Below, piece by piece: positions 43,583-63,774 of a stretch of 64,000 nt of DNA. The DNA is from Streptomyces zhihengii (lineage in GTDB: Bacteria > Actinomycetota > Actinomycetes > Streptomycetales > Streptomycetaceae): the NCBI RefSeq assembly GCF_016919245.1, contig NZ_JAFEJA010000001.1, positions 2,170,001 to 2,234,000 on the forward strand, given 5' to 3'. Numbering within the stretch: the stretch's first letter is position 1; each line of letters starts with the position of its first letter. The notes beneath the pieces were generated by a model. The model saw nothing but the letters and a program-made list of their open reading frames with translations. It made no database searches and had not been told where the DNA came from. The position numbers were made by a program, and so were the translations under genes.

Positions 43583-45024
43583 CGCCGGTGACCACCCACG
43601 ACGACCCGCCGGTGCCGCCGACGGCACCGGCGGCACCGGCCGGGGACACCGGGCGGAGCGCCCGGCGGGCCGTCGCCGGGCGGCTGTCCTGGGGGCTGGC
43701 CGACCAGGCGGCCTCCAGCATGACCAACTTCGCGGTGGGCATCTACGTGGCACGCTCGCTGGGGCTCGCCGCCTTCGGTGTGTTCAGCCTGGCCTGGGTG
43801 ACCTACGGCGTGGTGCTCAACATCTCCCGCGGCGTGGCCACCGACCCCCTCGTGGTGCGCTTCAGCGGCGTGTCCGACAGCTCCTGGCGCAGGGCGGTGG
43901 CCCGGTCCTCGGGCACCGCCCTGGGCACCGGCGCCGTCGTCGGCGCGGTGTGCCTGGCCATCGGGCTCGCCCTCGGCGGCACGGTGGGGCCCGCGTTCGT
44001 CTGCCTCGGCGTGGTGCTGCCGGGGCTGCTGCTCCAGGACGCCTGGCGGTACGCGTTCTTCGCCGCCGGGACGGGGCGGAAGGCGTTCGTCAACGACGTG
44101 GTGTGGGGCGTCGCGCTCGTCCCCGCCATGGTGGTGGCCGCCCGGGTGGGCAGTGTGGCCGCCTTCGTGCTCGCCTGGGGCGGATCCGCCGCGGTGGCCG
44201 CGGTGTACGGCCGCGTCCAGTCCGGCATCCGGCCGCTGGCGGGCGGCGCACGCGCCTGGCTGCGCGAGCACCGCGACCTCGGCTACCGCTACCTCGTCGA
44301 GAACGTCAGCAACAGCGGCGCGAGCCAGTTGCGGGCGTACGGCCTCGGCGTGATCGTCGGGGTCGGCGCGGTGGGGGTGATCCGGGGCGCCGAACTGCTG
44401 CTCGGGCCGTTCCTCGCCCTGCTGATGGGGCTGTCCCTGGTCACCGTCGCCGAGGCGGCACGGGTGCTGCGGCGGGCCCCGCACCGGCTCGGCCGGTTCT
44501 GTCTCCTCCTCGGCGGCGGACAGGCCGCCGCCGCGCTGCTCTGGGGCGGGGCGCTGCTGCTGGTGCCCGACCGGGCGGGCGCCTTCGTGCTCGGCGGGGT
44601 GTGGGACGGCGCGTCCGCCCTCGTGGTGCCCGTCACCGTCGGCGTCGCGGGCGCCGGCCTGGGCACCGGCGCGGCGGCCGGACTGCGCGCGCTCGGCGCG
44701 GCCCGGCGCAGCCTGCGCAGCCAGTTGTTCGCCTCCGCCTGCTACGTCACCGGCGGGCTCGGCGGCGCGGCCGCCGGCGGCACGGCCGGCTCGGCCTGGG
44801 GCGTCGCCGCCGCGACCGTCTGCGCCTCGGCCGTGTGGTGGCTGCACCTGCGGGCCGCCCTGCGCGAGCACCGGGCGGAAGCGGTCCCGGACACCGCGGA
44901 AGCCGCCCCCGACGCAGGCGCGGAAGCCGCCCCGGACGCCGCGGGCGCGGTCCCGGGTGCCCCGGACACCGCCGGAGCCGCCCCGGACACCGCGAGCGCC
45001 GGAAAGAAACCATCCCCGAAGTGA
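43579..45024 (+). CDS. Wzx-type polysaccharide flippase (MOP superfamily)
   Basis: A 481-aa membrane protein with 12 or so hydrophobic helices from residue 40 (LSWGLADQAASSMTNFAVGI) and the MOP-type repeated small-residue pattern. It would flip lipid-linked repeat units outward for the Wzy polymerase. The last 50 residues are a low-complexity Ala/Pro/Asp tail made of repeats such as APDTA and AAPDA. GTG start in a GTGA overlap with DUF4910. Confidence 0.8.
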   Translation: MTPVTTHDDPPVPPTAPAAPAGDTGRSARRAVAGRLSWGLADQAASSMTNFAVGIYVARSLGLAAFGVFSLAWVTYGVVLNISRGVATDPLVVRFSGVSDSSWRRAVARSSGTALGTGAVVGAVCLAIGLALGGTVGPAFVCLGVVLPGLLLQDAWRYAFFAAGTGRKAFVNDVVWGVALVPAMVVAARVGSVAAFVLAWGGSAAVAAVYGRVQSGIRPLAGGARAWLREHRDLGYRYLVENVSNSGASQLRAYGLGVIVGVGAVGVIRGAELLLGPFLALLMGLSLVTVAEAARVLRRAPHRLGRFCLLLGGGQAAAALLWGGALLLVPDRAGAFVLGGVWDGASALVVPVTVGVAGAGLGTGAAAGLRALGAARRSLRSQLFASACYVTGGLGGAAAGGTAGSAWGVAAATVCASAVWWLHLRAALREHRAEAVPDTAEAAPDAGAEAAPDAAGAVPGAPDTAGAAPDTASAGKKPSPK

Positions 45025-45031
45025 GGACGCC

Positions 45032-45979
45032 ATGACCGACCGCCCCAGGCTGAGCATCGGCCTGCCCGTGTACAACGGCGAGGAGTACCTGGCCGAATCC
45101 TTCGACGCCCTGCTCGGCCAGACCTTCGAGGACTTCGAACTGGTCGTCTCCGACAACGCGTCCACCGACGGCACCGAGGACATCTGCCGCCGGTACGCCG
45201 CGCGGGACGCGCGGATCCGCTACATCCGGCTGCCCCGGAACATCGGCGCCGCCCCCAACCACAACCATGTCTTCACCGAGTGCCGCGGCGAACTGTTCAA
45301 GTGGGCCTCGCACGACGACCTGTACGCAAGGGACCTGCTGCGGCGCTGCGTCGAGGCGCTGGACGAACGGCCGGAGATGATCCTCGCCCACTCCGGCCAG
45401 GCCGTCATCGACGGCGACGGCCGGGTGAAGGTGCCGTACGAGTACGGGCTCGCCACCGACTCCCCGCACGCGCCCGAACGCTTCCGCAGCCTGCTGTTCG
45501 AGCCGGGCGGCGACGACTTCTACGGGGTGATGCGGGCCGATGTGCTGCGCCGGGTGAAACCGCACGACAGCTACCACCACGCCGACCGGACCTTCGTCGC
45601 CGAGATCACCCTGCACGGGCCCTTCCACCAGGTGCCGGAGCTGCTGTACTTCCGCCGCGACCACCCCACCCGCGCCGAGCGGGCGAACCCGTCCAAGCGC
45701 TCCCGGTGCGTCAACCTGGACCCGCGCCGGGCGGGCCCGCTGCACCCGACGCCCCGGCTGCTCGCCGAGTACGTCTGGGGCTTCGCCTCGGCGATCCGGC
45801 GGGCACCGCTCTCCCCCGCCGACCGGCGGGAGTGCCGCCGCCATCTGGCCGCGTGGATGACCAGCCGGGTCCGGCCGGGCGCCGGCGAACGGGTCGAGGA
45901 CCGGGCCCCCGTGGACCCGGACCGGCTCACCGTCTCCGTCGACGCGCTCGTCGCCGGACGCGAGGGGAGGCGGGCGTGA
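45032..45979 (+). CDS. GT2 glycosyltransferase
   Basis: A 315-aa GT-A inverting enzyme. It has LSIGLPVYNGEEYLAESFDA, VVSDNASTDGTEDIC (first Asp of the nucleotide site), and WASHDDLY, the DxD-like motif. It adds a sugar to the lipid-linked repeat. GAGG lies about 6 nt before the ATG. Confidence 0.92.
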   Translation: MTDRPRLSIGLPVYNGEEYLAESFDALLGQTFEDFELVVSDNASTDGTEDICRRYAARDARIRYIRLPRNIGAAPNHNHVFTECRGELFKWASHDDLYARDLLRRCVEALDERPEMILAHSGQAVIDGDGRVKVPYEYGLATDSPHAPERFRSLLFEPGGDDFYGVMRADVLRRVKPHDSYHHADRTFVAEITLHGPFHQVPELLYFRRDHPTRAERANPSKRSRCVNLDPRRAGPLHPTPRLLAEYVWGFASAIRRAPLSPADRRECRRHLAAWMTSRVRPGAGERVEDRAPVDPDRLTVSVDALVAGREGRRA

Positions 45980-47220
45980 CGGCCGTCCGCGTCGGGGTGT
46001 TCGGCCTGCTCGGGTCCGGCAACCTCGGCAACGACGGATCGCTGGAGGCCGTGCTCGGCTGGCTCCGCGCCGAGCACCCCGGGGCGGCCGTGGACGCGCT
46101 GTGCGGCGGGCCCGAGATCGTCACGGCCCGGTACGGCATCCCCGCCACCCGGCTGCACTGGTACCGCGGGGAGTACCGGACGGCGTCCCGGGCGCGGGCG
46201 ATCGCCGCGAAGGGGGCGGGCAAGCTCGTCGACGCGTTCCGCACCGCGGCCTGGGTGCGCCGGCACGACGTGGTGATCGTGCCGGGCATGGGCGTCCTGG
46301 AGGCCACCCTGCCGCTGCGGCCGTGGGGCTTCCCGTACGCGCTGTTCCTGCTCTGCGCGAGCGGCCGGCTGTTCGGCACCAGGGTGGCGCTGGTCGGCGT
46401 CGGCGCCGCCCCGATCGCCGCCCGCCCGACCCGGGCCCTGGTGCGCTGGTCCGCGCGGCTGGCCGCCTACCGGTCGTACCGGGACGACCAGTCCCGCGAC
46501 GCGATCCGGGCCATGGGCGTGGACACCTCCCGCGACGCCGTCCACCCGGATCTCGCCTTCGCCCTGCCCGCGCCGGCGGCGGGCACGGCCCCCGGGGGCC
46601 CGCCGGGCCCCGTCTGCGTCGGCGTCATGGACTTCCACGGCGGCGACGACGACCGCGCGCGGGCCGGGGAGATCCACCGGCGCTACCTCGACGGGACGAC
46701 CCGCTTCGTCCGCGCCCTCGCCGAGGACGGCCGGCGGGTCCGGCTGCTCACCGGCGACGCGTGCGACGACGCGGTGGTCGGGGCGATCCTCGACGCGGTG
46801 GACTCGCCGCTGGTCACCGCCGCCGAGACGGCCTCGCTCGGGGACCTGATGAAGGAGACGGCGGCGGCCGGCGCCGTGGTGGCGACCAGGTACCACAACC
46901 TGGTCTGCGCGCTGAAGTCCGGCACCCCGACGCTCGCCCTCAGCTACGCGGCGAAGAGCGACGCCCTGATGGCCCGGATGGGCCTCGACGCCTACCGCCA
47001 CCCGGCACGCGAGGTCGACGCCGACCGGCTGCTGGAGCAGTTCCGGGAGCTGGAGCGGCACGCGGACCGGCTGCGGCACACCCTCGCCGAACAGAACCTG
47101 GCGGTCGCGCGGAGCCTGACGGAGCAGTTCGCCGCCCTGACGTCGGCCCTCTTCCCACCGGCCGCCCCCGCCCGCACCCACACCCCCGCCCACACACCCA
47201 CCCCGCGGAAGGCACCATGA
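45976..47220 (+). CDS. polysaccharide pyruvyltransferase-family protein
   Basis: A 414-aa protein. The start VFGLLGSGNLGNDGSLEAVL and the late motif VVATRYHNLVCALKSGTPTL then SYAAKSDALMARMG are hallmarks of the CsaB/WcaK family, which add acidic pyruvate ketals from phosphoenolpyruvate to sugars. The product polymer is therefore likely acidic. The C-terminus is a Pro/Thr/His tail (THTPAHTPTP). GTGA overlap with the GT2 gene. Confidence 0.9.
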   Translation: MTAVRVGVFGLLGSGNLGNDGSLEAVLGWLRAEHPGAAVDALCGGPEIVTARYGIPATRLHWYRGEYRTASRARAIAAKGAGKLVDAFRTAAWVRRHDVVIVPGMGVLEATLPLRPWGFPYALFLLCASGRLFGTRVALVGVGAAPIAARPTRALVRWSARLAAYRSYRDDQSRDAIRAMGVDTSRDAVHPDLAFALPAPAAGTAPGGPPGPVCVGVMDFHGGDDDRARAGEIHRRYLDGTTRFVRALAEDGRRVRLLTGDACDDAVVGAILDAVDSPLVTAAETASLGDLMKETAAAGAVVATRYHNLVCALKSGTPTLALSYAAKSDALMARMGLDAYRHPAREVDADRLLEQFRELERHADRLRHTLAEQNLAVARSLTEQFAALTSALFPPAAPARTHTPAHTPTPRKAP

Positions 47221-47768
47221 AAGCGACCGCCGTCCCGGCCATCGCCGGCGCATACCTCTTCGAACCGACGCCGCACACCGACGAACGCGGCTTCTTCTGC
47301 CGCACCTTCGACGCCGAGGTGATCCGCTCGGTGGGCCTCGACCCGGAGGCCTTCGTCCAGGACAGCATGTCCCGCTCCGTCCGGGGCGTCCTGCGCGGCC
47401 TGCACCTGCGCTCCGGCGCCGGCGAGGCCAAGCTGGTGCGCTGCTCGTACGGGCGGGTCTTCGACGTCGCCGTGGACCTGCGGGCCGACTCGCCGACCTA
47501 CCTCGGCCGGGCCTGCGTCGAGCTGTCCGGCGAGACCCAGGCGACGCTGTACATCCCGGCGGGGTGCGCCCACGGGTTCCAGGCGCTGACCGCGACCGCC
47601 GACACCTCGTACCGGATCGACCGCCCGCACGACCCGTCCGAGGACGTGACGATCGCCTTCGACGACCCGGATCTCGCCATCCCGTGGCCGCTGCCGGTCA
47701 CCTCCGTGTCCGAACGGGACCGCGAGGCGCCGAGCCTCGCCGAGTTCCTGAAGCACCGGGAGAGCTGA
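47217..47768 (+). CDS. dTDP-4-dehydrorhamnose 3,5-epimerase-like protein (RmlC family)
   Basis: A 183-aa cupin. FEPTPHTDERGFFCRTF, then RGVLRGLHLR with the catalytic His, and YIPAGCAHGFQAL with the second conserved region are intact. RmlA, RmlB and RmlD are not in the window, so either they are elsewhere or this enzyme epimerises a different 4-keto sugar, such as one made by the methyltransferase/cytidylyltransferase set upstream. ATGA overlap with the pyruvyltransferase. Confidence 0.9.
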   Translation: MKATAVPAIAGAYLFEPTPHTDERGFFCRTFDAEVIRSVGLDPEAFVQDSMSRSVRGVLRGLHLRSGAGEAKLVRCSYGRVFDVAVDLRADSPTYLGRACVELSGETQATLYIPAGCAHGFQALTATADTSYRIDRPHDPSEDVTIAFDDPDLAIPWPLPVTSVSERDREAPSLAEFLKHRES

Positions 47769-47775
47769 GGCCGCC

Positions 47776-47895
47776 GTGACCACCGAACACCCCGCGGAGG
47801 CCGCGGTGACCACCGGACGCCCGGTGGAAGCGGCCGTGACCACCGGACGCCCGGTGGACGCCGCCGTGACCAGCGAACACCCGTCGGGCGAAGCC
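47776..47895 (+). repeat. four 30-bp repeats at the 5' end of the aminotransferase gene
   Basis: Repeats start at 47776, 47806, 47836 and 47866. Each begins GTGACCA; copies 2 and 3 differ at only a few bases. They encode VTTEHPAEAA, VTTGRPVEAA, VTTGRPVDAA and VTSEHPSGEA. Recent in-frame expansion that multiplies possible GTG starts. Confidence 0.85.
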
Positions 47896-49209
47896 GAGTT
47901 CGCCCTCCCCCGGTCCCGGGCGGCCAACGAGCGGCTGCACGCCCTGATCCCCGGGGGCGCGCACACCTACGCCAAGGGCGACGACCAGTACCCCGAGGAC
48001 CTGGCCCCGGTCATCAGCCACGGCCGCGGCGCCCACGTGTGGGACGTCGACGGCAACCGCTACATCGAGTACGGCTCCGGCCTGCGGTCGGTCAGCCTCG
48101 GCCACGCCCACCCCCGGGTGGTCGAGGCGGTGCGGCGCGAACTCGACCGCGGCAGCAACTTCGTCCGCCCGTCCGTCGTGGAGGCCGACGCCGCGGAACG
48201 GTTCCTGGCCACCGTGCCGACCGCCGAGATGGTGAAGTTCGCGAAGAACGGCTCCGACGCCACCACCGCGGCGGTGCGCCTCGCCCGCGTCGCCACCGGG
48301 CGCCCGCGGGTGGCCCTCTGCGCCGACCACCCGTTCTTCTCCACCGACGACTGGTTCATCGGCACCACGCCGATGTCCGCCGGCGTCCCGGACGCCGTCA
48401 ACGAGCTGACCGTGGCGTTCCCCTACGGCGACCTGGCCGCCACGGAGGCGCTGCTCACCCGGTACGAGGGCGAGGTCGCCTGCCTGATCCTCGAACCGGC
48501 CACCCACACCGAACCGCCGCCCGGCTACCTCGCCGGACTGCGCGCGCTGGCCGACCGGCACGGCTGCGTCCTGGTCTTCGACGAGATGATCACCGGCTTC
48601 CGCTGGTCCGAGGCGGGCGCGCAGGGCCTGTACGGCGTGGTCCCCGACCTCTCCACCTTCGGCAAGGCGCTGGGCAACGGCTTCGCCGTCTCCGCGCTGG
48701 CCGGGCGCCGCGACCTGATGGAACGCGGCGGGCTGCGCCACGGGGGCGAGCGGGTCTTCCTCCTCTCCACCACCCACGGGGCGGAGACCCACTCCCTCGC
48801 GGCCGCGATGGCCGTGCAGAGCACCTACACCGAGGAGGGCGTCACCGCCCGGCTGCACGCCCTCGGCGAACGGCTGGCCGCCGGGGTCCGCGAGGCCGCG
48901 GCCGGCATGGGCGTCGCCGACCACCTCATCGTCCGGGGCCGGGCCAGCAACCTGGTCTTCGCCACCCTCGACGAGGAGGGCCGGCCGTCCCAGGAGTACC
49001 GCACCCTCTTCCTCCGCCGGCTCCTCGCGGGCGGGGTGCTGGCCCCGTCGTTCGTGGTCAGCGGCGCCCTCGACGACGCCGACATCGACCGCACCGTGGA
49101 CGTGGTGGCGCAGGCGTGCGCCGTGTACCGCAAGGCACTCGACGCGGGCGGCCCCGGGCCCTGGCTGGGCGGGCGACCGGTGAAGCCGGTCTTCCGCGCC
49201 CGCGCCTGA
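47776..49209 (+). CDS. class III aminotransferase (glutamate-1-semialdehyde aminomutase-like)
   Basis: A 477-aa PLP enzyme. The body begins about residue 40 (LHALIPGGAHTYAKGDDQYP), with VFDEMITGFR and the PLP Lys in STFGKALGNGF. In a polysaccharide operon it probably makes an amino sugar from a keto sugar or a C4 substituent. The first 40 residues are four copies of a 10-residue repeat, each beginning with a GTG codon, so the true start is uncertain: 47776, 47806, 47836 or 47866. Last gene of the cluster. Confidence 0.88.
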   Translation: MTTEHPAEAAVTTGRPVEAAVTTGRPVDAAVTSEHPSGEAEFALPRSRAANERLHALIPGGAHTYAKGDDQYPEDLAPVISHGRGAHVWDVDGNRYIEYGSGLRSVSLGHAHPRVVEAVRRELDRGSNFVRPSVVEADAAERFLATVPTAEMVKFAKNGSDATTAAVRLARVATGRPRVALCADHPFFSTDDWFIGTTPMSAGVPDAVNELTVAFPYGDLAATEALLTRYEGEVACLILEPATHTEPPPGYLAGLRALADRHGCVLVFDEMITGFRWSEAGAQGLYGVVPDLSTFGKALGNGFAVSALAGRRDLMERGGLRHGGERVFLLSTTHGAETHSLAAAMAVQSTYTEEGVTARLHALGERLAAGVREAAAGMGVADHLIVRGRASNLVFATLDEEGRPSQEYRTLFLRRLLAGGVLAPSFVVSGALDDADIDRTVDVVAQACAVYRKALDAGGPGPWLGGRPVKPVFRARA

Positions 49210-49345
49210 CGTCCCGTCCCCTCCCCCGGCGGGTCGCTCCGAGGACGCCAGATCCCGTGGTCGGCCGGTCACCCCCCGCCGGGGAGCCGGGGGTCCGCCC
49301 TGTCCGGCCCGGCCGCTCCGAGGCCGTCCGACCACTCTGCCGACG

Positions 49346-50050
49346 TCAGGCCCCGCGGTCGGCCGGCTCCCCGGCCGGCCGTTCGCCACCGGCCGGGGAG
49401 CCGGTCGGTCCGCCCCGGCCGGGCCTTCGGCCGGCCACCCTGCCGACCAGCCACGCGGCCACCGGCACCACCGCCAGCGCGGTGCAGCAGCCACCGACCG
49501 CATCGGTCGGATAGTGCGCCCCCAGCGCGACCTGCGCCCAGCCCATCACGGCCCCGGCGCCCAGCGCCGCGCCGAGCACGGCCACCGGTCCGGCCGCCGC
49601 GAGCAGCACCACCACGAAGGCGAGCGCGGTGAGGAACGCGGTGTGCCCGCTCGGGTAGGACAGATGCCCGTCGTGGATGGTGCGTCCCGCCAGCGGCTTG
49701 AGCACCTTCGTGACCACCACGGCCGCCCCGGGGCCCACCACGACGAGCACCGCGGCCCACGGGCGCCGCCGCACCAGACACCCCGTCACCAGCGCCGCCA
49801 CCAGGGCCGCGGCCCCGACGGGCTCGCCGAGGAAGTCGACCCCCAGCGCCACCTGCCGCCACGGCGCACCGGCCCCGTCCACCCCGCCCTGCACCCACGC
49901 GTCGGGCCCGCCGGGCCCGCCCTCCCCGGCGTACAGGACACCGAGCCCCAGCACCACGAACGCGGCGAGGCCCGCCACCAGTCCGAGCCACCGGGCCGGC
50001 ACCGCGCCCGTCACCCGCCCGCCGTCCCCGCCACGCCACCGACTCCCCAT
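49346..50050 (-). CDS. PAP2-family phosphatase (membrane)
   Basis: A 234-aa protein with about five or six membrane helices. Phosphatase motifs are KPLAGRT (variant of KxxxxxxRP), YPSGHTAF with the catalytic His, and LGAHYPTDAVGG. It probably dephosphorylates a lipid phosphate such as undecaprenyl pyrophosphate outside the membrane, which would recycle carrier lipid used by the neighbouring exopolysaccharide pathway. Convergent with that operon across a 136-nt gap holding imperfect repeats and no gene. The ATG 50050 has GGGGG upstream. Confidence 0.88.
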   Translation of the reverse strand: MGSRWRGGDGGRVTGAVPARWLGLVAGLAAFVVLGLGVLYAGEGGPGGPDAWVQGGVDGAGAPWRQVALGVDFLGEPVGAAALVAALVTGCLVRRRPWAAVLVVVGPGAAVVVTKVLKPLAGRTIHDGHLSYPSGHTAFLTALAFVVVLLAAAGPVAVLGAALGAGAVMGWAQVALGAHYPTDAVGGCCTALAVVPVAAWLVGRVAGRRPGRGGPTGSPAGGERPAGEPADRGA

Positions 50051-50224
50051 CGCCGAGCCCCCCGTGATGTCCGCGCCGCGCGGGCCGCGGACGGGCCGCC
50101 CCGAACGCGCCGGCGTGTGCCCCCGCCCCGGTCATAGGCGGAGGAATCAGTCTCCACCGGCCACCCTAGCCAACAACCCGGCCGCCACAGCCCGCTGTTG
50201 CCGAGCCTCACCCGCACGAACGGG

Positions 50225-50965
50225 TCACTCGCGGACGGCCGGTGCCGCCGTCCGGAAGCCGACGCCGATCGCCGCGAGGTCCGCCTCGTAGGCGCCGTGC
50301 CGCCGCGCGCACCGGGCCAGGTCCCGGTCGTGGCGGAACGCGCCGCCCCGGGTGATGTGCCGGTCGAAGGCCCAGTCCTCCGTGTCCGGCACCCCGGCGG
50401 GCGCACCCGGGTAGGGGGCGTACACGGTGGAGGTCCACTCGTCGGCGTTGCCCGCCATGTCCAGCACCCCGAAAGGGCTGGCGCCCCCGGGGAACGAACC
50501 GACCGGCGTGGTGGTCCCGATCCCGAGGTCCACCAGATTGGCCAGGCCGGTGCGGTACTCCTCGCCCCAGGGGAACTCCCGCCCGTCGTCACCCCGTGCG
50601 GCACGCTCCCACTCGTCCTCCGTCGGCAGCCGCACCCCGAGGCCGAGCCGCTCCCCCAGCCACCGGCAGTAGTCCGCCGCCGCCTCCCAGCCGACCCCGA
50701 CCACCGGGTGGTCCGCCGGCCCCCGTCCCGCCGGTCGGCCGGTGGCCGCCGCGAAGGGCTCCCACTGACCGACCGTCACCTGCGTCCGCGCGATCCGGAA
50801 CGCCGGGACGTGGATCTCCGCGCGCGGGGCCTCCTTCCGGTACCACTCCACCGGCACCCCGGTGTCGCGATAGCGCCGCGCCACCGCCGCCACCTCCTCG
50901 ACGGGCGTGCCCCGCCGCAGCAACCCGGCCGGCACCTCGACCCAGTCCACCTGTTCCACCCGCAC
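50225..50965 (-). CDS. SUMF1/FGE-domain protein lacking the catalytic cysteine pair
   Basis: About 246 aa from GTG 50965, chosen because GGAGG lies 4-5 nt upstream; longer frames run into non-coding tandem repeats. It has the formylglycine-generating-enzyme fold: [54 protein letters not shown] and [20 protein letters not shown]. In true enzymes the GG[SA]-x-x-C-x4-C pair carries the reaction; here those positions read His and Ala, so sulfatase activation is unlikely. Divergent from the TPR-CHAT protease. Similar catalytically dead SUMF1 domains may act as binding modules (inference). Confidence 0.85.
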
Positions 50966-51042
50966 GGCTCCTCCTCGGCTCGAACGCACGACGCCCATGC
51001 TCACCGCCGCTCCCGGCGCCGGCATCGGCCGCCGGACCGATC

Positions 51043-51146
51043 CCGGCCGCGACCTTCGTTCCGGATCCCCGGCGGCGGCCTTGGTTCCGGATCCCCGGCC
51101 GCGACCTTGGTTCCGGATCCCCGGCCGCGACCTTGGTTCCGGATCA
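51043..51146. repeat. 26-bp tandem repeat, four copies, between divergent genes
   Basis: Unit CCGGCCGCGACCTTGGTTCC plus GGATCC, with TTCCGGATC recurring at 51059, 51085, 51111 and 51137, exact period 26. A period not divisible by 3 and lying upstream of both genes argues for a regulatory, iteron-like array controlling the FGE-domain and CHAT genes. Confidence 0.75.
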
Positions 51147-51169
51147 CGCCGCGCGGACGGGAAAGCAGC

Positions 51170-51195
51170 CAGAAGGAGTGAGATGACTCCTTCTG
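51170..51195. promoter_or_regulatory. inverted repeat upstream of the TPR-CHAT gene
   Basis: CAGAAGGAGT (51170-51179) and ACTCCTTCTG (51186-51195), 6-nt spacer, perfect. It lies about 64 nt before the CHAT start and could be an operator or a leader hairpin. Confidence 0.5.
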
Positions 51196-51258
51196 CTGAC
51201 ATCACCGGCCACAGCCGGATATCTTCGGCCACGGGGAAGCGGGAACCAGGGGGGACCG

Positions 51259-53838
51259 ATGGGGGATTCCTACGTCACCGACATCGCCGAGCACCCGGCC
51301 TGCGCGGTGCTGCTGTCCGCCTGGCAGTCACCCGACGCCGAGCGGCGGCGGGCGATGGTCGAAGGGCTCGGCATTCCCGGCCCCATCGCGCTGCGCAGCC
51401 GCTACCGCATGCTGCTGGACCCCCAGGCCCCCGCGGGGCCGTGGAACCCGGGGCTCACGCCGGAGAGCTGGGCGCGGCAGCTGCGGCTGGAGACCGAGGG
51501 CGACAACGCGGTGCGGTCCGGCGCGCTCACCGTCGCGCGGGACGCCTTCCGCGCCCTTCTGGCCGAGGCGCCCCCCGACCGGCCGCGTGTGGCCGCCGTC
51601 CACGCCCACCTCGGGCTCGGCAAGGTCGCCATGGAGCGGAACGACATCGAGTCCGCGGCCGAGCACTTCGCACGGGCGTCGGCCGCGGCCGACGCGTCGC
51701 GCTACCGCTTCGGACGGGCGCAGACGCTGGTCCACTGGGCGTACATGACCCTGTGGCACCACTCCGCCGAACTCGCTCTGGACCAGTTCCAGGAGGCGGC
51801 CTCCATCGCCGGGGCCCTCGACGACCCGGTGTTCCAGGGCAACGCCCAGCTCGGCGCGGCCGAGTGCGCGGAGCGGCTCGGCCAGCTGGACCGCATGGAG
51901 CGGCACGGCAAGGACGCCTACGCCACGTTCGTCTCCGTCCACTCGGCGCACGGCCAGGGCAACGCGGCCCAGCGGCTGGCCGGCTGGCTGCACCGCCGGG
52001 GCAGGCACGCCGAGGCCTGGGAATGGCTCGACCTGGCGCTGGCCGCCTTCCGGCAGGACGGCAACCCGACGGGCCTGGCCAATCTGCACTCGCTGCGCGG
52101 TGACCTCCTGCTGGACGAACGCCGCTTCGCGGAGGCGGGCGACGAGCACGGCAGGGCTCTCGAACTCGCCACGTCCGCCGGCCTGTCGCGGGCGCGCGCC
52201 CACGCCGTGCACGACCTGGGCCGCACGGCACGCGGGCTGGGCGACTGGCCCGGGGCGGTCGCGCTGTTCACCCGGTCCCTGCGGGAGTACCGGGACCTCG
52301 GCGACCTGCTCGGCATGTCCAACGCCTTCGGCAAGCTGGCCGAGGCACAGGAGAAGTGCGGCTCCGCGGACGAGGCGTTACGTACCTGGCGCGAAGCCGT
52401 CGTGGAGGTCGAGCACTACCGCGCCGACCACCAGGAGGACCGCTTCCAGGAGGAGTACCGGCGACGCTTCCGCGGCATCTACGGCGGAGCGCTGTCCGCG
52501 GCCGAGCAGCACCGCTCCCCCGAGACCTTCGCCGTGGTGGCCGACTTCCTGGCCGGCCGCCGGCTGGCGGGACTGCTGGAGGCGAGCAGTGCCGCGCCGG
52601 CCGGCGAGGCACCGGACCGGCTGCGGGAACTGCTCGCCGGAGCGGACCGCGGACTGCTGGCCCACCGGCGCGCCGCAGGGCCGGACGCCGACGGCACGCG
52701 CCGTGAGAGCCGCATCCGCCGGCTGGGCGCGTTCGACACCCGGCAGGACACCGGGGCCCCGGCGGACAAGTCCCTCGACGACCTGCTCGCCGCGGTGTAC
52801 CTCCCCCCGGCCGACGAGGGCGGCGCCCTGCTGGGGGCGCTGCCCGACGGATGCCACGCCCTCCAGCTCCTCCTCGACCCGGTGGAGGAGGAGCTGGTGC
52901 GCTGGCTGTGGAAGCCCCCGGGAGGCAAGGCCGCCCTGGGCAGCTTCCGGCTGACGCCGCCCGCCCTGGACCTGCTGTCCGTCCTGCGGTCCGGTGATCG
53001 GGCGGCCGAACGCCAGGCGCTGACGGCCGAGGACCTACGACCGCTGTCCGCCCCCCTGCTCCCGGCGCCGCTCACCACGGCCCTCCTCGGGGCCGGCCCG
53101 CACGACCTGCTGATCCTCCCGGCCGGCGAGCTCTGGCGGGTGCCGTGGGGCGCCCTGCCGCTGCCGGACGGCCGGCTTCTCGGCGAGGTGTCGCACTTCG
53201 TGGTCTGCCCCTCGCTGACCATCCAGCGGCAACTGGCCACACGCGAGGGCGCCACGGACGGCCCGCGCGTCCCCGTCGACGTCGACGTGTGGCGCAGCCC
53301 GCTCGTGAAGCACCACCCCATGGAGCTGTTCCGGGACCACCGGTGGAACCCCCGGCGGCTCACCTCGGCGGCCGAGGCCCGCGACGCGGTCTGCGAGGGG
53401 CGCACGCTCATGGTGCTGACCGGGCACGGCAGGCCCCGCCCCGAGACCCGTCACTACCTCGAACTCGACCGGGACACCTGGCTGCTGCCCACCGACCTGC
53501 TCGGCCGTCGCCCGCCCCGGCGACTGGCCCTGATCGCCTGCTGGGGCAGCACCTCCCCGGGCCGTGCGCCCGGCGACCCGATCAGCATCGCGACCCTGGC
53601 GCTGGCCGGAGGCTCCGACGAGGTACTGGCCACCGTGGGGGAACTGGGCGATTCCGCGCCCGCGACCCGGTACGTGGAGATGGTGCTGAACGCGCTGCCC
53701 GAGCACGGCATGGCGGCGGCGGTGCACCGGGCCACGCGCCGCTTCCTCAGCCGCCGCGAGTACCGCTCGCTTCCGGTGCTCGACTGGGCCCCCCTCGTCC
53801 CCATCGGCACCCACCGACCCACCGGAGGCCGGCCATGA
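51259..53838 (+). CDS. TPR-CHAT caspase-like protease
   Basis: An 859-aa protein. Residues about 75-420 are tetratricopeptide repeats ([40 protein letters not shown]). The C-terminal 270 residues are a CHAT domain: [20 protein letters not shown], catalytic His723 in VLTGHGRP, and catalytic Cys761 in IACWGS. CHAT proteases are caspase relatives used in Craspase, gasdermin operons and signalling. TPRs probably sense a partner or peptide. ATG 51259 follows GGGGGGA. It overlaps the zinc-ribbon gene by 4 nt; a membrane protein follows, so cleavage of that partner is plausible. Confidence 0.9.
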
Positions 53839-54215
53839 CCACCCGCCCGCACCAGGCACTCGCCTACGAGCTCGACGAGCCCCTGGCCTACCGGTGGACC
53901 GACACCGCCTTCGACATGTGCACCGCGGACGACCCCGGGCTCACGGTGGCCGTGGAGCATTCCGCGGGGATCACCCGGGTGGTCGTCAGCGGATTCTGCC
54001 CCCGGTGCCTGGGAGAGATATCCGGCGAGGAGATCCTGACCGCCGCCGGCGAGAAGGGTGTCCTCGGCGACGGCACGGCGGGCACGCCGGATCTCTTCAC
54101 CCGTGTCCTGGTGACCTGCAACTGCGAGCTCGGTCACGAGAACCGGCCCGCGGACGTGAAGACCGGCTGCGGCATCACCTTCGCCGTCGAGGTGTTCCGG
54201 GACGACCTCGCATGA
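53835..54215 (+). CDS. small zinc-ribbon protein in the CHAT operon
   Basis: A 126-aa protein with Cys pairs FCPRCLGEI (about 54-62) and TCNCELGH with a later CGI, typical of a zinc ribbon or treble clef. No family recognised. It overlaps both neighbours by ATGA, so expression ratio to the protease is fixed. Could be an adaptor or substrate of the CHAT protease. Confidence 0.75.
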   Translation: MTTRPHQALAYELDEPLAYRWTDTAFDMCTADDPGLTVAVEHSAGITRVVVSGFCPRCLGEISGEEILTAAGEKGVLGDGTAGTPDLFTRVLVTCNCELGHENRPADVKTGCGITFAVEVFRDDLA

Positions 54216-54883
54216 CGCCAGCGGAGCGCTACCGGAGGCCGGCCGCTCCCCCGAGCGAGCGCGAACTCGCCGAGGACAGGGCCTGGCGGCAGTACACGGA
54301 GGAGTCCCTGGCCCGGGCACAGTCCAGCGCAGAGCAGTGGCGCACCGGACTGGGGCTGCTGGTGACGGTGATGGCCGCCGGACTGATGCTGGGCGGGCCC
54401 GGCAGGATGGCCGACCTGCGCCCCGAATGGCGCGCCGTCCTGACCGCCGGTCTGGGAATCGGATTCGTCGTGGCACTGTGCGGTCTGTGGGCCGCCTCGC
54501 GTGCCGCCGCGGCAGGGGGTTCGGGCCCCGCCGACCGCGACCGGGTGCGCGCCGCCCACGGCGGCCTCGCCGCCTACAAGGCGGCCGTGGCGGCGCGCGG
54601 CTGGCGGGACATCCGCAGAGCACGCATCGCGCTGCTGGTCTCCGTGCCGCTGATCGTCACCATGACGCTGACGTCCTGGTGGCTCCCCCGCGAGTCCCCG
54701 GCGCCCGCCAACGGACCGAACCCCCGCGTCCTCGTCGTCACCCCCGGTGCGGTCCGCTGCGGCGAACTGACCGGTACCGGGGCCGTCCTGACCGTCCGCC
54801 CGGCCGGCGGATCCGGCGCTCCGCAGCGGATCCCGGTCACCCGGATCCGGTCCTTGACGGTGGTGCAGTCCTGCCCGCCATGA
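54212..54883 (+). CDS. membrane protein in the CHAT operon
   Basis: A 223-aa protein with three hydrophobic helices: about 51-68 (LGLLVTVMAAGLMLGG), 80-100 (LTAGLGIGFVVALCGLWAAS) and 142-160 (IALLVSVPLIVTMTLTSWWL). The N-terminal 48 residues are charged and helical, in the cytosol by the positive-inside rule; the last 60 residues form a small outer domain with two cysteines. No homology to gasdermin was seen. Candidate effector or target of the CHAT protease (inference). ATGA overlaps on both sides. Confidence 0.75.
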   Translation: MTPAERYRRPAAPPSERELAEDRAWRQYTEESLARAQSSAEQWRTGLGLLVTVMAAGLMLGGPGRMADLRPEWRAVLTAGLGIGFVVALCGLWAASRAAAAGGSGPADRDRVRAAHGGLAAYKAAVAARGWRDIRRARIALLVSVPLIVTMTLTSWWLPRESPAPANGPNPRVLVVTPGAVRCGELTGTGAVLTVRPAGGSGAPQRIPVTRIRSLTVVQSCPP

Positions 54884-55008
54884 CCACGCGCGCCCCCCGG
54901 CGCACAGCCGCACCGGAGCCCGGGAGGAGCGCCGCCGTGAGCAGACCGAGCAGGGCCGGCTGCACACGGCAGGAGACGTACACGGTCGACACGACGCGCA
55001 CGGGCTGA
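54880..55008 (+). CDS. possible 42-residue peptide
   Basis: ATG overlaps the membrane-protein stop as ATGA, the same coupling used by the two preceding genes. The peptide is Arg/Thr/Ala-rich with one cysteine. It may be real because of the coupling, or a chance frame. No ribosome site of its own. Confidence 0.3.
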   Translation: MTTRAPRRTAAPEPGRSAAVSRPSRAGCTRQETYTVDTTRTG

Positions 55009-55043
55009 GCGAGGGCCGTTCGCCCGGGGCACCTCGCCCCCGC

Positions 55044-56297
55044 TCACCCCTCCGCCCGGAGCGCGGCCGGTGTGACGGTGCGCAGGAACGGGACGACGGT
55101 CGCGGCCGCGAGCAGCGCGAGCACCACGAACGCGGCCCGTGGGGAGACGAGTTCGCCGATCACGCCAGCCAGTCCCGCGCCCAGCGGCATCGCCCCCCAG
55201 CCGAACAGGCGGGACGCCGCGCCGAACCGGCCGAGCAGTCCGTCGGGGACCAGACGCTGCCCGATGGTGCGGGAGTTGACCGTCCACAGCGTGCCGCCCA
55301 TCCCGCCGAGGAAGGCGCCGGCGGCCACGGCCCAGGTCTGCGTGGTCAGGGCCGGCAGGGCGGCCATCGCCGCCGTGCCGAGGAGGTCGGCGAACATCGC
55401 CCAGCGGACGCCGAGGAGCCGGTTCACCGCGGTGACGGCGAGGGCACCGGTGAGCCCGCCGACGCCGAGGGCGCTGAGCACCAGTCCGTACTCGCCGGCG
55501 TCGAGCCCCATCTCCTGCTTCGCGTACAGCGGGATCAGCGCGAGCCAGCCGCCCCAGACCGCGCACAGCGCGGTCAGGACGAGCGACATCGTGCGCAGCA
55601 GGTGGTGCCGCCACAGGAAACGGAGTCCTTCGGCGATGCGGGCGTTGACGGAGGCGGGGGCGGCGGTGCCGCGCTCGGCGCGGAAGCGGCCCGCGAGGAA
55701 CGGCAGGGCGAGGGCGGCAACGGCGTACGCGATCCAGGTGGCGCCCAGCGCCAGACCCGTGCCGGCGGCCATCAGCAGGCCCCCGGCGAACGGTCCCGCG
55801 AACTCCTGGCAGACCGTCTCGGCCCCGGACATCCAGGCGTTGACGCGGCCCCGGGCCTCCCTCGGCACTGCGGCGGGTACGAGGGCGGGGCCCGCCGTGC
55901 CGGCGATCACGTCGGCCACGCCGAGGACCGCGCCGGCGAGCAGCAGCTGGGGCAGCGAGAGGCCGCCGCCGGCCGCCGCGGCGGCGAGCCAGCCGACCGC
56001 GGCGAGCCGCAGGGCGTTCGCGGCCCACAGCAGGCGGCGCCGGTCCAGGCGGTCCACGAGGACGCCCACGTGCAGGGCGATCAGCAGCCAGGGCGCGGTG
56101 AGGGTCAGCGAGACGGCCGCGACCCTGGCGGGGGAATCGGTCAGCTCGGCGGCGAGCATCGGAAGGGCCATCTTCAGCACGCCGTCGGCGAGATTGGTGG
56201 CGGCGGTGAAGGCGACGAGCACGGCGGTGTTGCGCCGCGCGGGGGGCCGCTCCGGCGCCGCCCCTGCCGCCCCTGCGCCCCGCGTCGCTGTCGCCAT
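55044..56297 (-). CDS. MFS transporter (drug-exporter type)
   Basis: A 417-aa protein with about 12 membrane helices beginning TAVLVAFTAATNLADGVLKM. The loop LVDRLDRRRLLWAANALRLA is the cytoplasmic motif A-like segment between helices 2 and 3. It belongs to the enterobactin/macrolide-exporter-like part of the family. Substrate unknown. The much longer frame is a shadow; ATG 56297 has a G-rich ribosome site. Divergent from a CGNR regulator, which probably controls it. Confidence 0.88.
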   Translation of the reverse strand: MATATRGAGAAGAAPERPPARRNTAVLVAFTAATNLADGVLKMALPMLAAELTDSPARVAAVSLTLTAPWLLIALHVGVLVDRLDRRRLLWAANALRLAAVGWLAAAAAGGGLSLPQLLLAGAVLGVADVIAGTAGPALVPAAVPREARGRVNAWMSGAETVCQEFAGPFAGGLLMAAGTGLALGATWIAYAVAALALPFLAGRFRAERGTAAPASVNARIAEGLRFLWRHHLLRTMSLVLTALCAVWGGWLALIPLYAKQEMGLDAGEYGLVLSALGVGGLTGALAVTAVNRLLGVRWAMFADLLGTAAMAALPALTTQTWAVAAGAFLGGMGGTLWTVNSRTIGQRLVPDGLLGRFGAASRLFGWGAMPLGAGLAGVIGELVSPRAAFVVLALLAAATVVPFLRTVTPAALRAEG

Positions 56298-56368
56298 CCC
56301 CGCCCCCACTAACCGTCTATCCCGTTGACCGGTGAGACGAGCGTGGCATGACGCACCCTCCCGCCGCA

Positions 56369-56390
56369 ACCGGCTAAACGGATAGCCGGT
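56369..56390. promoter_or_regulatory. operator-like palindrome between MFS and CGNR genes
   Basis: ACCGGCTA (56369-56376) and TAGCCGGT (56383-56390), 6-nt spacer. The spacing suits a dimeric repressor; the CGNR protein is the likely binder. Just upstream, TAACCGTCTATCC (56310-56322) resembles a related site in the other direction. Confidence 0.5.
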
Positions 56391-56441
56391 AGACTGGTGG
56401 ATGGATTCGGCCACCGACCAACCGACCCGAGGACGGGACGC

Positions 56442-56999
56442 ATGCTCGAACAGCCCTCCGCGGCGGCGCTGGTGGAGGCGTTCGCCAACACGGTCGACGT
56501 GGAGGAGGCGAGCGACGAGATCGCCACCGCCCAGGCACTCGCCTCCTGGCTGCACGACCGGGGGCTCCGGGACACGCCGGATCCCCTGCCGGACACCGCG
56601 CACCGGGCGTACCTGGCCCTGCGTGCGGGCATCCGCGAGCGGCTCGGCGCGCACGTCGGCGACACCCCCGACGAAGCCCTGCTGACCGCCGCGGACGCGG
56701 TGCTCGCCGAGCACCCCGTCCAGGTCACCGCCGACGGGAGGCTGACTCCGGCGCCCGGCCTGCCCGCCGCGCGGGAGCCCCTGGCCCGTCTCGCCATCGC
56801 CTGGAGCGAGCTGACGACCACGGGGGACGCCGCACGCCTCAAGCGGTGCGCGGAGCACACCTGCGGCTGGGTGTTCTGGGACGTGTCGAAGAACCGCAGC
56901 CGCCGCTGGTGCTCGATGAAGGTGTGCGGCAACCGCAGCAAGTCCCGCGCCTACGCGGCCCGCACACGGGCCACCGCGGGGCGCGACAACCAGCCCTGA
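56442..56999 (+). CDS. CGNR zinc-finger transcriptional regulator (ABATE domain)
   Basis: A 185-aa protein from ATG 56442 (GAGG 9 nt upstream). The N-terminal ABATE-type ligand-sensing domain opens LVEAFANTVDVEEASDEIAT. The C-terminal zinc finger has LKRCAEHTCGWVFWDVSKNR and WCSMKVCGNRSKSRAYAART with the name-giving CGNR. Probably controls the divergent exporter. A GTG at 56397 opens the frame but lacks a ribosome site. Confidence 0.9.
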   Translation: MLEQPSAAALVEAFANTVDVEEASDEIATAQALASWLHDRGLRDTPDPLPDTAHRAYLALRAGIRERLGAHVGDTPDEALLTAADAVLAEHPVQVTADGRLTPAPGLPAAREPLARLAIAWSELTTTGDAARLKRCAEHTCGWVFWDVSKNRSRRWCSMKVCGNRSKSRAYAARTRATAGRDNQP

Positions 57000-57053
57000 T
57001 CCAGAGGCGGTTGGAGACACCTGGCGCCTCGACGCACTCTGGCGCCGCCACCG

Positions 57054-57091
57054 CCCCGGTGCTTGACTGGCGCCCCGGTGCTTGACCGGCG
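57054..57091. repeat. 19-bp tandem duplication upstream of the ArsR-like gene
   Basis: CCCCGGTGCTTGACTGGCG and CCCCGGTGCTTGACCGGCG are directly adjacent. Each holds TTGAC, a possible -35 box, so the duplication might double a promoter element. Confidence 0.5.
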
Positions 57092-57191
57092 CCCCGCCTC
57101 TCCCTCCGCCCACCGGGAGCCCCGGGGGACCGCTTCGCCACGCGCTCCCCCGCCGCACCGCCCACCGCCCCCGCCCTCCGACGGAGCGCCC

Positions 57192-58205
57192 ATGCTGCGG
57201 ATCCACTTCACGCCCGAGGACATGACGCGTGTCAGGGTGGCCAAGGGACCGGACTTCCTGTGGGAGATCACCAACAGCGTGCAGACGCTGCAACGCAGGG
57301 ACGGCGAACGGGTGTTCGGCGACTGGCGCCGGTGGGTGCGGTCGAGGCCGCCGGAGAGCCGGCGGCTGCTCTCCCCGCTGCTGCCTCCGTACGGCTACTC
57401 GCCGGACTTCCTCACACCGGCCTCCGGGGACCACGGCACCCTCCAGGCAGCCGTGGACGCCCTGCTCGGAACACCGCTCACCAGGCTGCGCACGGAGCTG
57501 ACGCTGCTCGCGCGCTCCAGGCGGCTGCCGGGCTGGACCCGTGCGCTCGCGGAAGGGGACAGGGAGGTCCTGGCACGGCTCGGGAACGCCGTCGCCTCCT
57601 ACCAGGCGGAGGTGCTCGTCCCGCACTGGCGGCACGTCCGGGCCGGTGTCGAGGCGGACCGGGCCCACCGGCTGCGGAGCCTGATGGACGGCGGCACCGA
57701 GGGACTCCTCGCGAGCCTCGGCCCGCACGCCCGCTGGCGCCCGCCCGTCCTGGAGGTGGCCTGCCCGGTCGATCAGCACCTGCGTCTGGCGGGGCGCGGG
57801 CTCGTGCTCCAGCCGTCGTTCTTCTGCTGGCCCGCTCCCACCACACTGGCGGACGGGGCGCTGCCACCCGTCCTGGTCCACCCGATCCGCCACACGGACG
57901 GCTGGGCCTCTCCGTCACGGGAGGCGCACGCGCAGGACCGTCTCGGGCTCCTCATCGGCCGGACCCGCGCGGAGCTGCTGCGGGCCGCGCGGAACGGCTG
58001 CTCCACCGTGGAGGCCGCCCGCATGCTCCAGGTGACGCACCCCGCGGTGAGCCAGCACATGAACGTGCTGCGCGCCGCCGGCCTCGTCACCACGGTCCGC
58101 ACCGCAGGCCGGGCGTTCCACCTCGTGACGGCCGAAGGACGCGCCCTGCTGTCCGCCGAGCACCGGGGTCCCGGAGCCGAACCGGCCGCCGGAGGCGGCC
58201 CGTAA
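57192..58205 (+). CDS. ArsR/SmtB-like winged-helix regulator with long N-terminal domain
   Basis: A 337-aa protein. Residues 1-245 form a domain opening MLRIHFTPEDMTRVRVAKGP, commonly seen as DUF5937 in Streptomyces regulators. The C-terminal winged helix (about 265-325) has CSTVEAARMLQVTHPAVSQH and VLRAAGLV. No metal-binding cysteine pair is visible in the helix. Target unknown. CGGAG precedes the ATG. Confidence 0.85.
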   Translation: MLRIHFTPEDMTRVRVAKGPDFLWEITNSVQTLQRRDGERVFGDWRRWVRSRPPESRRLLSPLLPPYGYSPDFLTPASGDHGTLQAAVDALLGTPLTRLRTELTLLARSRRLPGWTRALAEGDREVLARLGNAVASYQAEVLVPHWRHVRAGVEADRAHRLRSLMDGGTEGLLASLGPHARWRPPVLEVACPVDQHLRLAGRGLVLQPSFFCWPAPTTLADGALPPVLVHPIRHTDGWASPSREAHAQDRLGLLIGRTRAELLRAARNGCSTVEAARMLQVTHPAVSQHMNVLRAAGLVTTVRTAGRAFHLVTAEGRALLSAEHRGPGAEPAAGGGP

Positions 58206-58274
58206 GCCTGGACTTACAGGACTTGCACCCCCTTCCGGCGGGCCCACACGCTGTCTGACACCACCGCGTCCGGT

Positions 58275-58299
58275 GGGGGCGCGGCCCCGAGGCGCCCCC
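58275..58299 (+). terminator. hairpin after the ArsR-like gene
   Basis: GGGGGCGC (58275-58282) pairs with GCGCCCCC (58292-58299), 9-nt loop. It lies between the regulator stop and the esterase start and probably separates the two units. Confidence 0.5.
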
Positions 58300-58330
58300 T
58301 TCCACGAGGCCTCTTCCCACAGGAGCCCCG

Positions 58331-59395
58331 ATGCACAGGCGAAACGCCACCCCGCCGCCGGCGCGTCACCCGGACACCCCGCCCCCTTCCTCGCCGGAGG
58401 TCACGTTGAGCACCCACCACCCCACCCGCAGGAACGTCATGAGGGCCGCTGCCGGACTCACCGCGGCGACCGCCCTCGGCGCGGGAGGCGTCCTGGCGTC
58501 GGCCGCCGCCGCCCACGCCGTCGGCGACGGATTCGGCCTGCGCATCGTGGACCGGGGCGAGGCCGATCCCCGGATGCGCTACTACCGCTTCGCCACCTCG
58601 GCCATCGGCTGGAACCCCGGGGTCAACGTGCTGCTGCCGGACGGCTACCACACCTCGGGCCGCCGGTACCCGGTCCTGTACCTGTTCCACGGCGGCGGCA
58701 CCGACCAGGACTTCATCACCTTCGACCGGATGGGCATCCGCGCGTGGACGGCGGGCAAGCCGCTCATCGTCGTGATGCCGGACGGGGGCCACGCGGGCTG
58801 GTACTCCAACCCGGTCGGCTCCAACGTCGGTCCCCGCAACTGGGAGACCTTCCACATCGCGCAACTGCTGCCGTGGATCGACGCCAACTTCCGCACGTAC
58901 GCGGAGTACGACGGCCGGGCCGTCTCGGGCTTCTCGATGGGCGGCTTCGGCGCGCTGAAGTACGCGGCCAAGTACTACGGCCACTTCGCCTCGGTCAGCT
59001 CGCACTCCGGCCCGGCCAGCCTGCGCCGCGACGGCGGTCTCGTCGTCCACTGGGCCAACCTCTCCTCGGCGGCCGTCGAACTGGGCGGGGGCACGGTCTA
59101 CGGCGCACCGCTGTGGGACGAGGCGCGCGTCAGCGCGGACAATCCGGTGCAGCGTGTGGAGAGTTACCGGCACAAGCGGGTGTTCCTGGTGGCGGGCACC
59201 AGCCCGGACCCGGTCAACTGGTTCGACACCGTCAACGAGACACAGGTCCTGGCGGGGCAGCGGGAGTTCCGGTCCGTGCTCGGCTCCGCCGGGATACCGC
59301 ACGAGTGGCACGAGGTCCCGGGCGGGCACTTCGTCCGCCCCGACCTCTTCCGCCGGGATCTGGACGGGATCGTCGCCCGTCTCCGCAAGGCCTGA
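58331..59395 (+). CDS. secreted esterase (antigen-85/Esterase-D-like alpha/beta hydrolase)
   Basis: A 354-aa protein. A long N-region precedes a Tat-like signal (TRRNVMRAAAGLTAATALGA) ending near AAAAHA (about 58-62). The mature hydrolase has YLFHGGGTDQDF, nucleophile Ser202 in GFSMGGFGA, and a likely catalytic His in VPGGHF. Members hydrolyse acyl esters, including feruloyl or acetyl groups on plant polymers and mycolyl esters. AGGAG lies 6 nt upstream of the ATG. The next gene is also Tat-type secreted. Confidence 0.87.
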   Translation: MHRRNATPPPARHPDTPPPSSPEVTLSTHHPTRRNVMRAAAGLTAATALGAGGVLASAAAAHAVGDGFGLRIVDRGEADPRMRYYRFATSAIGWNPGVNVLLPDGYHTSGRRYPVLYLFHGGGTDQDFITFDRMGIRAWTAGKPLIVVMPDGGHAGWYSNPVGSNVGPRNWETFHIAQLLPWIDANFRTYAEYDGRAVSGFSMGGFGALKYAAKYYGHFASVSSHSGPASLRRDGGLVVHWANLSSAAVELGGGTVYGAPLWDEARVSADNPVQRVESYRHKRVFLVAGTSPDPVNWFDTVNETQVLAGQREFRSVLGSAGIPHEWHEVPGGHFVRPDLFRRDLDGIVARLRKA

Positions 59396-59430
59396 CCTCT
59401 CGCCCTCCGTCCACGCACCGGGAGCCCGTC

Positions 59431-60552
59431 ATGCAGCCACCGTCACCGCGCCGCCCCGCCCGCCCGGGGACCGGGTCCGCCCCGTCCCCCGCCGGCACCG
59501 GTCCGAGCCGCCGGACGCTGCTGCGCACCGCCGCCGGCGGGCTCCCGCTGGCGGGCCTGGGTCTCGCCGCCCCCCGCGCGGGCGCGGCTCCGCGCATCAC
59601 CGGCACGAAGGTGCGCGACCTCACCGGGCCCGCGCAGACGGGGCGGTTCGCCGCGCCGTGGACCGACCTGGGCATCCCGGCGCGCTGCCCCGACGGGTCG
59701 ATGCTCCTCGTCTGCGGCGACACCTTCGACGGCGGCGGAGTCGGCGGCCCCGACTGGCGCTCGCCCGTGGGGCTGCGCTCCTCGAACGCGGCACCGGAAG
59801 CGCTCCTCGTCGACGGCGCCGTGGGCGGCTCGCGCGCCGTCGGCCTGGTCCCGGAGGGCCACACGGGCGGTACGACCGCCCTCCCCTCCGACGTGTTCAC
59901 CGTCGGGACGACGATGTACATGCACCTGATGCGCGGGGTGATCCACCGGACCCACCACACCGACTTCTGGCGGTCCGACGACAACGGCGCGACATGGCAC
60001 TACCTCTGCCAGTGGCCGGGCGACCTGCACGGCGGACAGTTCCAGCAGAAGACCTACGCGGTCGCGGACGACGGCTGGTGCTACGTCCTGTCGACCGCCT
60101 TCAACCGGGAGACGACCTCCGGCCTGCTCCTCCACCGGGTGCCCCAGCACGCGCTGGGAGACCCCGCGGCCTACCAGCCCTGGGGCTACGCGGGCGGCCG
60201 CTGGGCCTGGGGCAACCCGCCGACGTCGGTGACCCGCGCCCGCCGGTGGGGCGAGATCTGCTTCCGTGCGATGGGCGGCGGATACCTGCTCAGCTGGCTG
60301 AACATGAGCCCGCTGGACATCCGGGCCCAGATCTTCGCCCTGCCGACCTCGAACCTCTTCACCGCACCGGAACAGACCATGATCGTCCCCACGGTGCCCG
60401 GACGGGAGACCGGCAACGCGGTGGCGAGTCCGTACGGGGGTTTCGTCGTCCCCGGCTCGGCCTTCGACGACCTCCATCTGACCGTCAGCCAGTGGTACGG
60501 CGACCAGGACTACCGGGTGATGCAGTACCGGGTGAACGGCCTCACCGGGTGA
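59431..60552 (+). CDS. secreted DUF4185-domain protein
   Basis: A 373-aa protein with a twin-arginine signal SRRTLLRTAAGGLPLAGLGL (about 26-45). The DUF4185 beta-propeller follows: WTDLGIPARCPDGSMLLVCG with DTFDGGG, then SDDNGATWHYLCQWPGDLHG. The fold is sialidase/GH43-like and members are presumed secreted glycan-active enzymes; activity is unproven. GGGAG precedes the ATG by 7 nt. The last six codons are duplicated just past the stop (60540-60569). Confidence 0.82.
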   Translation: MQPPSPRRPARPGTGSAPSPAGTGPSRRTLLRTAAGGLPLAGLGLAAPRAGAAPRITGTKVRDLTGPAQTGRFAAPWTDLGIPARCPDGSMLLVCGDTFDGGGVGGPDWRSPVGLRSSNAAPEALLVDGAVGGSRAVGLVPEGHTGGTTALPSDVFTVGTTMYMHLMRGVIHRTHHTDFWRSDDNGATWHYLCQWPGDLHGGQFQQKTYAVADDGWCYVLSTAFNRETTSGLLLHRVPQHALGDPAAYQPWGYAGGRWAWGNPPTSVTRARRWGEICFRAMGGGYLLSWLNMSPLDIRAQIFALPTSNLFTAPEQTMIVPTVPGRETGNAVASPYGGFVVPGSAFDDLHLTVSQWYGDQDYRVMQYRVNGLTG

Positions 60553-60575
60553 ACGGGCTCACCGGCTGACGCCGC

Positions 60576-60617
60576 GGACCGTCACCACGCGGGGCCCGGA
60601 CGCGCGTGAGACGGTCC
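60576..60617. terminator. bidirectional terminator between convergent genes
   Basis: Nested stems GGACCGTC/GACGGTCC (60576-60583, 60610-60617) and CACGCG/CGCGTG (60586-60591, 60603-60608) make an extended hairpin. Confidence 0.6.
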
Positions 60618-60645
60618 CTCTCGCCGCGGGAACCAGGATCCGGGG

Positions 60646-63744: not shown

Positions 63745-63774
63745 CGGACGGCACCACACCCACCCCCGCGCCCC

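Follow-up and report, generated by a model that had tools for sequence, protein, structure and literature searches.

In bacterial gasdermin systems, a gasdermin gene lies beside a protease gene. Csx29 of Craspase cuts Csx30, a sigma factor inhibitor, according to PMC10028731. A two-gene EACC1-caspase system has been described as prevalent in actinobacteria by Kaur et al. 2020 (PMC7159879), and CATRA as caspase-dependent ternary multi-gene systems (Burroughs and Aravind 2020, as cited in PMC8195603).

We analysed a stretch of 64,000 nucleotides of the Streptomyces zhihengii genome (the window), and found that the genes for a TPR-CHAT protease (CHAT), a zinc-ribbon-like protein (ZNR) and a membrane protein (TM) are co-directional within 51259-54883 (Table 1). 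CHAT-ZNR-TM very probably constitutes a protease-partner module, and it is the conserved unit as judged from comparison of related loci. As in Craspase, the TPR part and the caspase-like CHAT fold of Csx29 are matched by the predicted structure of the cassette CHAT. However, no gene of the size of Cas7-11/gRAMP was found among the gene calls in 44001-64000 (20 kb), the tandem array has no spacers where Craspase has a crRNA locus, and the partners are ZNR and TM as against the Csx30/Csx31/sigma-factor set. The CHAT model also resembles separase, whereas the cassette is a bacterial operon with a small membrane partner. The EACC1-caspase system likewise pairs a small membrane protein with a protease of the caspase superfamily, but EACC1 is encoded 5' of the protease and has a single TM helix, whereas the cassette TM has three hydrophobic stretches, lies 3' of CHAT and is accompanied by ZNR (compared with the description in PMC7159879). 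Of the Pfam families matched by 16 ZNR and 16 TM members, none bears a CATRA name. The gasdermin systems also place a protease beside a membrane-acting candidate, but the cassette TM looks like a three-helix integral protein, and ZNR and TM gave no gasdermin match in Pfam and PADLOC, scans that may cover bacterial gasdermins incompletely. The initial annotation had not recognised this gene combination, and keyword searches of the literature, covering mostly titles and abstract openings, gave no match either and returned no name for the ZNR-TM pair.

Table 1. Features of the CHAT-ZNR-TM locus and its surroundings (window coordinates).
Feature	Position	Strand	Basis
CHAT, TPR-CHAT protease, 859 aa	51259-53838	+	ORF list and Pfam
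ZNR, zinc-ribbon-like protein, 126 aa	53835-54215	+	start overlaps CHAT stop as ATGA
TM, membrane protein, 223 aa	54212-54883	+	start overlaps ZNR stop as ATGA
Small ORF, 42 aa	54880-55008	+	start overlaps TM stop as ATGA
26-bp unit, four copies in tandem	51042-51145	no strand	repeat search
FGE-sulfatase-domain gene	50225-50998 (start 50998 or 50965; ORF 50225-51232)	-	Pfam, divergent neighbour

The host genome (9.73 Mb, 7 contigs) contains one ZNR match and five CHAT matches, including the cassette CHAT. The close relatives of ZNR and TM for which a name is given belong to Streptomyces. The ORF coordinates reproduce all the successive ATGA overlaps read earlier from CHAT to the 42-aa ORF, and the four tandem copies of the 26-bp repeat do lie between the likely start of the FGE-domain gene (50965 or 50998) and CHAT. 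Two other tandem repeats were observed in the window. One has a 30-bp unit (47767-47883) and falls at the beginning of a called gene (47776-49209), and the other has a 93-bp unit (62654-62913, 2.8 copies, 94% matches) within the gene called at 61954-63510. A phage origin was considered and rejected, as TM had no match at E<=0.01 in 50,697 phage records and no PHROG was found for CHAT, ZNR or TM (E<=0.01); the FGE-domain gene had one PHROG match at this threshold. To look for other defence genes in the surroundings, PADLOC was run on 14 window proteins; CHAT was assigned a TPR model, and 57192-58205 matched Csa3 weakly.

CHAT matched the Pfam families TPR_12 (41.4 bits) and CHAT (PF12770, 41.3 bits, with a curated cut-off of 24), with TPR helices at approximately 68-388 and the protease region at approximately 520-853. 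The catalytic residues His723 and Cys761 were found at the positions given by the initial annotation, and are invariant across a 40-row alignment of relatives. The nearest solved folds to its AF2 model (pLDDT 83.8, pTM 0.80) include Csx29 of Craspase and separase. As modelled, CHAT is a TPR-CHAT protease built like Csx29 and separase, with the catalytic dyad intact. Its named relatives are mostly from Streptomyces, and those from Kitasatospora, Micromonospora and Actinoplanes are more distant.

The genus was searched for both partner proteins. A TM profile gave 46 matches in 38 of 199 genomes, the window included, and ZNR was found in 12 of the 199 (11 besides the window genome). All 45 other TM loci were fetched (L018-L028 and L063-L096, mostly as stretches of 17 kb), and ZNR was found just upstream of TM in 41 of them. 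Within the fetched stretch, 35 of these 41 ZNR-TM loci have a clan-CD protease (18 CHAT, 17 caspase-iHD-CE); the counts include a weak ZNR in L082 (17.9 bits) and the CHAT of L021, which is separated from the pair by 7.8 kb and intervening genes. The four weakest TM matches (L093-L096) have neither ZNR nor protease. Chance expectation is approximately 0.5% per 17 kb, given that 25 genomes of the same genus contain 56 matches to CHAT and 8 to iHD-CE. The association of ZNR-TM with clan-CD proteases is far above chance (binomial 1.3e-74, a figure that is too small because related loci were treated as independent).

A further search yielded 14 new matches, of which the 11 best were taken (L148-L158) and the three weakest left out. 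Outside the genus there were seven TM matches, and five of them were read (L106-L110): L106 has ZNR and TM with no protease, and L107-L110, which are absent from the 61-locus protease tally, have TM only. L105 and L133 were discovered via TM, and L131 via its CHAT. The enlarged set of 57 ZNR-TM loci, from which L132 is absent, comprises 28 with CHAT, 21 with a caspase-iHD-CE protein in its place, and 8 with neither in the stretch read. The pair is thus not specific to CHAT. Pfam was run on part of the partner proteases. The caspase-iHD-CE proteins (L026, L027 and 19 further loci) were identified by Pfam in two cases, and the rest with a profile derived from these two. They are long and encoded upstream of ZNR-TM, and the two scanned also carry a Pfam wHTH-HSP90-associated domain. 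The catalytic His and Cys are present in every partner protease, CHAT (28/28) and caspase (21/21) alike.

An in-frame overlap of the ZNR stop with the start of TM is seen in 55 of the 57 loci, with ATG, GTG or TTG as the start codon in 52 and CTG in three. In a quick tree of ZNR and TM, with long branches for L085, L090, L106 and L131, there is one change between CHAT and caspase when the 8 rows with neither protease are set aside; with these rows kept, the CHAT label changes twice and the caspase label four times. The converse is not true. The pair lies beside only 3 of the 56 CHAT matches (window, L019, L028) and only 2 of the 8 iHD-CE matches (L068, L089) in the 25 genomes. Taken together, the strict pairing, the overlap, the co-change with protease type and the retained active sites mark ZNR-TM as a partner dedicated to certain clan-CD proteases. 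In five loci (L069, L071, L074, L075, L080), CHAT is divergent from ZNR-TM and is followed by a protein of approximately 220 aa and a RES-domain protein. It is possible that CHAT, the ~220-aa protein, the RES protein and ZNR-TM form a five-gene system.

The likely zinc ligands of ZNR are C55, C58, C95, C97, H101 and C112, and its CPxC and CxC cysteines, the His and the GCG are retained in 55 to 57 of the 57 proteins. No Pfam family was found for the window ZNR and none above its cut-off for TM, and neither these two nor the 42-aa ORF had a Pfam match at E<=0.1. The hydropathy profile of TM contains three hydrophobic stretches, so three TM helices are predicted, in agreement with the earlier description of a three-helix membrane protein in the unit. 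TM has an N-terminal helix, the three TM helices and a small C-terminal beta domain with C183 and C221. The positions of an A-x2-W-R-x-G-L motif at TM helix 1 are kept in 46 to 57 of the 57 proteins, and the charge count suggests an N-in, C-out orientation. The two cysteines flanking the C-terminal beta domain are found in 48 of 57 proteins, and the remaining nine (L019, L153, L084, L086-L089, L091, L092) end directly after helix 3. Behind the TM stop in L019 and L153 there is an apparent decayed remnant of the C-terminal domain. The other seven fall into a single clade and show no trace of this outside domain past the stop, which weakens the idea that it was lost repeatedly. The predicted TM model is poor (pLDDT 60.9) and had no match in the PDB at E<=0.001; small-barrel PDB matches to the C-terminal part of TM are hints only. 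The SLATT domain of 2TM effectors was matched weakly (E 0.63) in 1 of 16 TM members scanned.

Relatives of the whole cassette were read in three other species. In S. ipomoeae (L105), CHAT, ZNR and TM are 78, 73 and 73% identical, and their order is kept. The same order is found on a Mycolicibacterium arabiense plasmid (L131), with CHAT 32% identical over 795 positions, and on a Gordonia terrae plasmid (L132), where CHAT is apparently interrupted (L132:5902-11898) by an insert that includes an IS5-family transposase gene, and ZNR and TM remain after it. L166 (4900-9106) has a CHAT that is 42% identical over 865 aligned positions, i.e. the whole CHAT. There is neither ZNR nor TM at this locus and no TM match in its genome, and a CAP12/Pycsar TIR domain (PF10137) is encoded by the divergent neighbour. 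Five loci resemble CHAT along most of its length, and four of them have ZNR-TM; of the three located through CHAT alone (L131, L132, L166), two have it. In the remoter loci L167-L171 the CHAT match is limited to a portion of the final 360 residues, and both ZNR and TM are absent; with these loci counted, the tally is 4 of 10.

We put at about even the proposal that the three genes form a protease module working at the cytoplasmic membrane, in which ZNR or TM is the target of the activated protease. A trigger would be sensed via the TPR part, or via other regions where the protease is a long caspase protein, and this would turn the protease on. ZNR would tether the protease to TM, and the switched-on protease would act on ZNR or TM. 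The altered membrane protein may then cause membrane harm or a growth stop, as in abortive infection. A role of the module in defence or cell suicide is somewhat favoured. The narrower claim that TM would be the acted-on target, and not a mere anchor or sensor, is rated at less than even odds. RES and TIR are NAD-degrading toxin domains. Such known killing domains are found in kin of the cassette, with RES beside CHAT in five loci and TIR, with no pair, in L166. Since RES is also present in five loci, TM need not be the effector. The proposal is further weakened by the small share of CHAT and iHD-CE matches that carry the pair, by the 8 pairs with neither protease in the stretch read, and by L166 and L167-L171, whose CHAT has no ZNR-TM.

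The strongest alternative is that TM, with an outside disulfide domain, and ZNR, as an adaptor, would anchor the protease and hold or release it, and that the protease or a further gene (RES, TIR) would kill. We regard this reading as plausible, though short of an even chance. A conserved cysteine pair flanking the C-terminal beta domain of TM (48/57) would fit a sensor, and the charge count, which suggests that this end of TM lies outside, is consistent with it. RES is additional to ZNR-TM in its five loci, and a regulator could likewise accompany two protease architectures, as the pair does. However, the seven TM proteins of one clade (L084, L086-L089, L091, L092) end after helix 3 with no remnant, and in L166 the TIR gene lies beside a CHAT without the pair. 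The TIR gene beside this one close CHAT and the clade lacking the TM outside domain tip our preference slightly towards ZNR or TM being the protease target. Overall, the anchor or sensor model accounts for the data about as well as the model in which ZNR or TM is the target.

Signalling in place of killing is improbable, but deserves mention. Here a Craspase-like protease would cut its partner and produce a transcription or envelope response. Csx29, whose cleavage of the sigma factor inhibitor Csx30 is described in PMC10028731, is among the nearest solved folds to CHAT. On the other side, the M. arabiense and G. terrae copies have no annotated sigma factor next to them, none was found among 8 window proteins scanned with Pfam, and the ZNR and TM profiles, compared with PDB chains by sequence alone, gave no match with E below 0.05.

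The least credible reading is the larger cassette of the initial annotation, including the FGE-domain gene, the array and the 42-aa ORF, for which adjacency and the ATGA overlap at 54880 argue. The relatives speak against it, and we consider it very improbable. ZNR and TM do lie next to CHAT homologues in S. ipomoeae, M. arabiense, G. terrae and further loci, but the FGE-domain gene, the array and the tiny ORF found no support as members of a four-gene set. DNA similarity to S. ipomoeae is confined to window 51248-54772, which places the FGE-domain gene and the array outside the unit, and no tandem array was found in L105. Neither the array nor the 42-aa ORF is kept in L105. A 204-aa ORF follows TM there, and its start resembles 27 aa of the 42-aa ORF, so the latter may be a remnant. 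The FGE-domain gene is absent beside CHAT in all three CHAT-ZNR-TM relatives read (L105, L131, L132), and three relatives of it (L145-L147, 80-86% identity; L146 is an 11.7-kb contig) have other neighbours, without CHAT, ZNR or TM in the stretch read. In the fetched ZNR-TM stretches, its profile matched once, approximately 7-8 kb away (L090). We judge that the FGE-domain gene is unrelated to the cassette. It matched FGE-sulfatase (PF03781) with 180.5 bits, and its translation lacks the two cysteines of the motif that we take to be the FGE active site, as the initial annotation had stated. The further claim that the gene is dead is unsupported. The superfamily also contains other enzymes, so the missing cysteines show only that the product is not an FGE.

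With ZNR-TM, a group of bacterial CHAT and caspase proteases gains a defined pair of partners. It is conceivable, though rather unlikely, that ZNR-TM would be an interchangeable membrane executioner or docking unit for TPR-CHAT and caspase-iHD-CE proteases, a gasdermin-free bacterial equivalent of the step in pyroptosis that leads from caspase to membrane. Were ZNR or TM the substrate, caspase-like proteolysis would be tied to the membrane without a gasdermin. If the pair is an anchor, it would show the site of action of these proteases.
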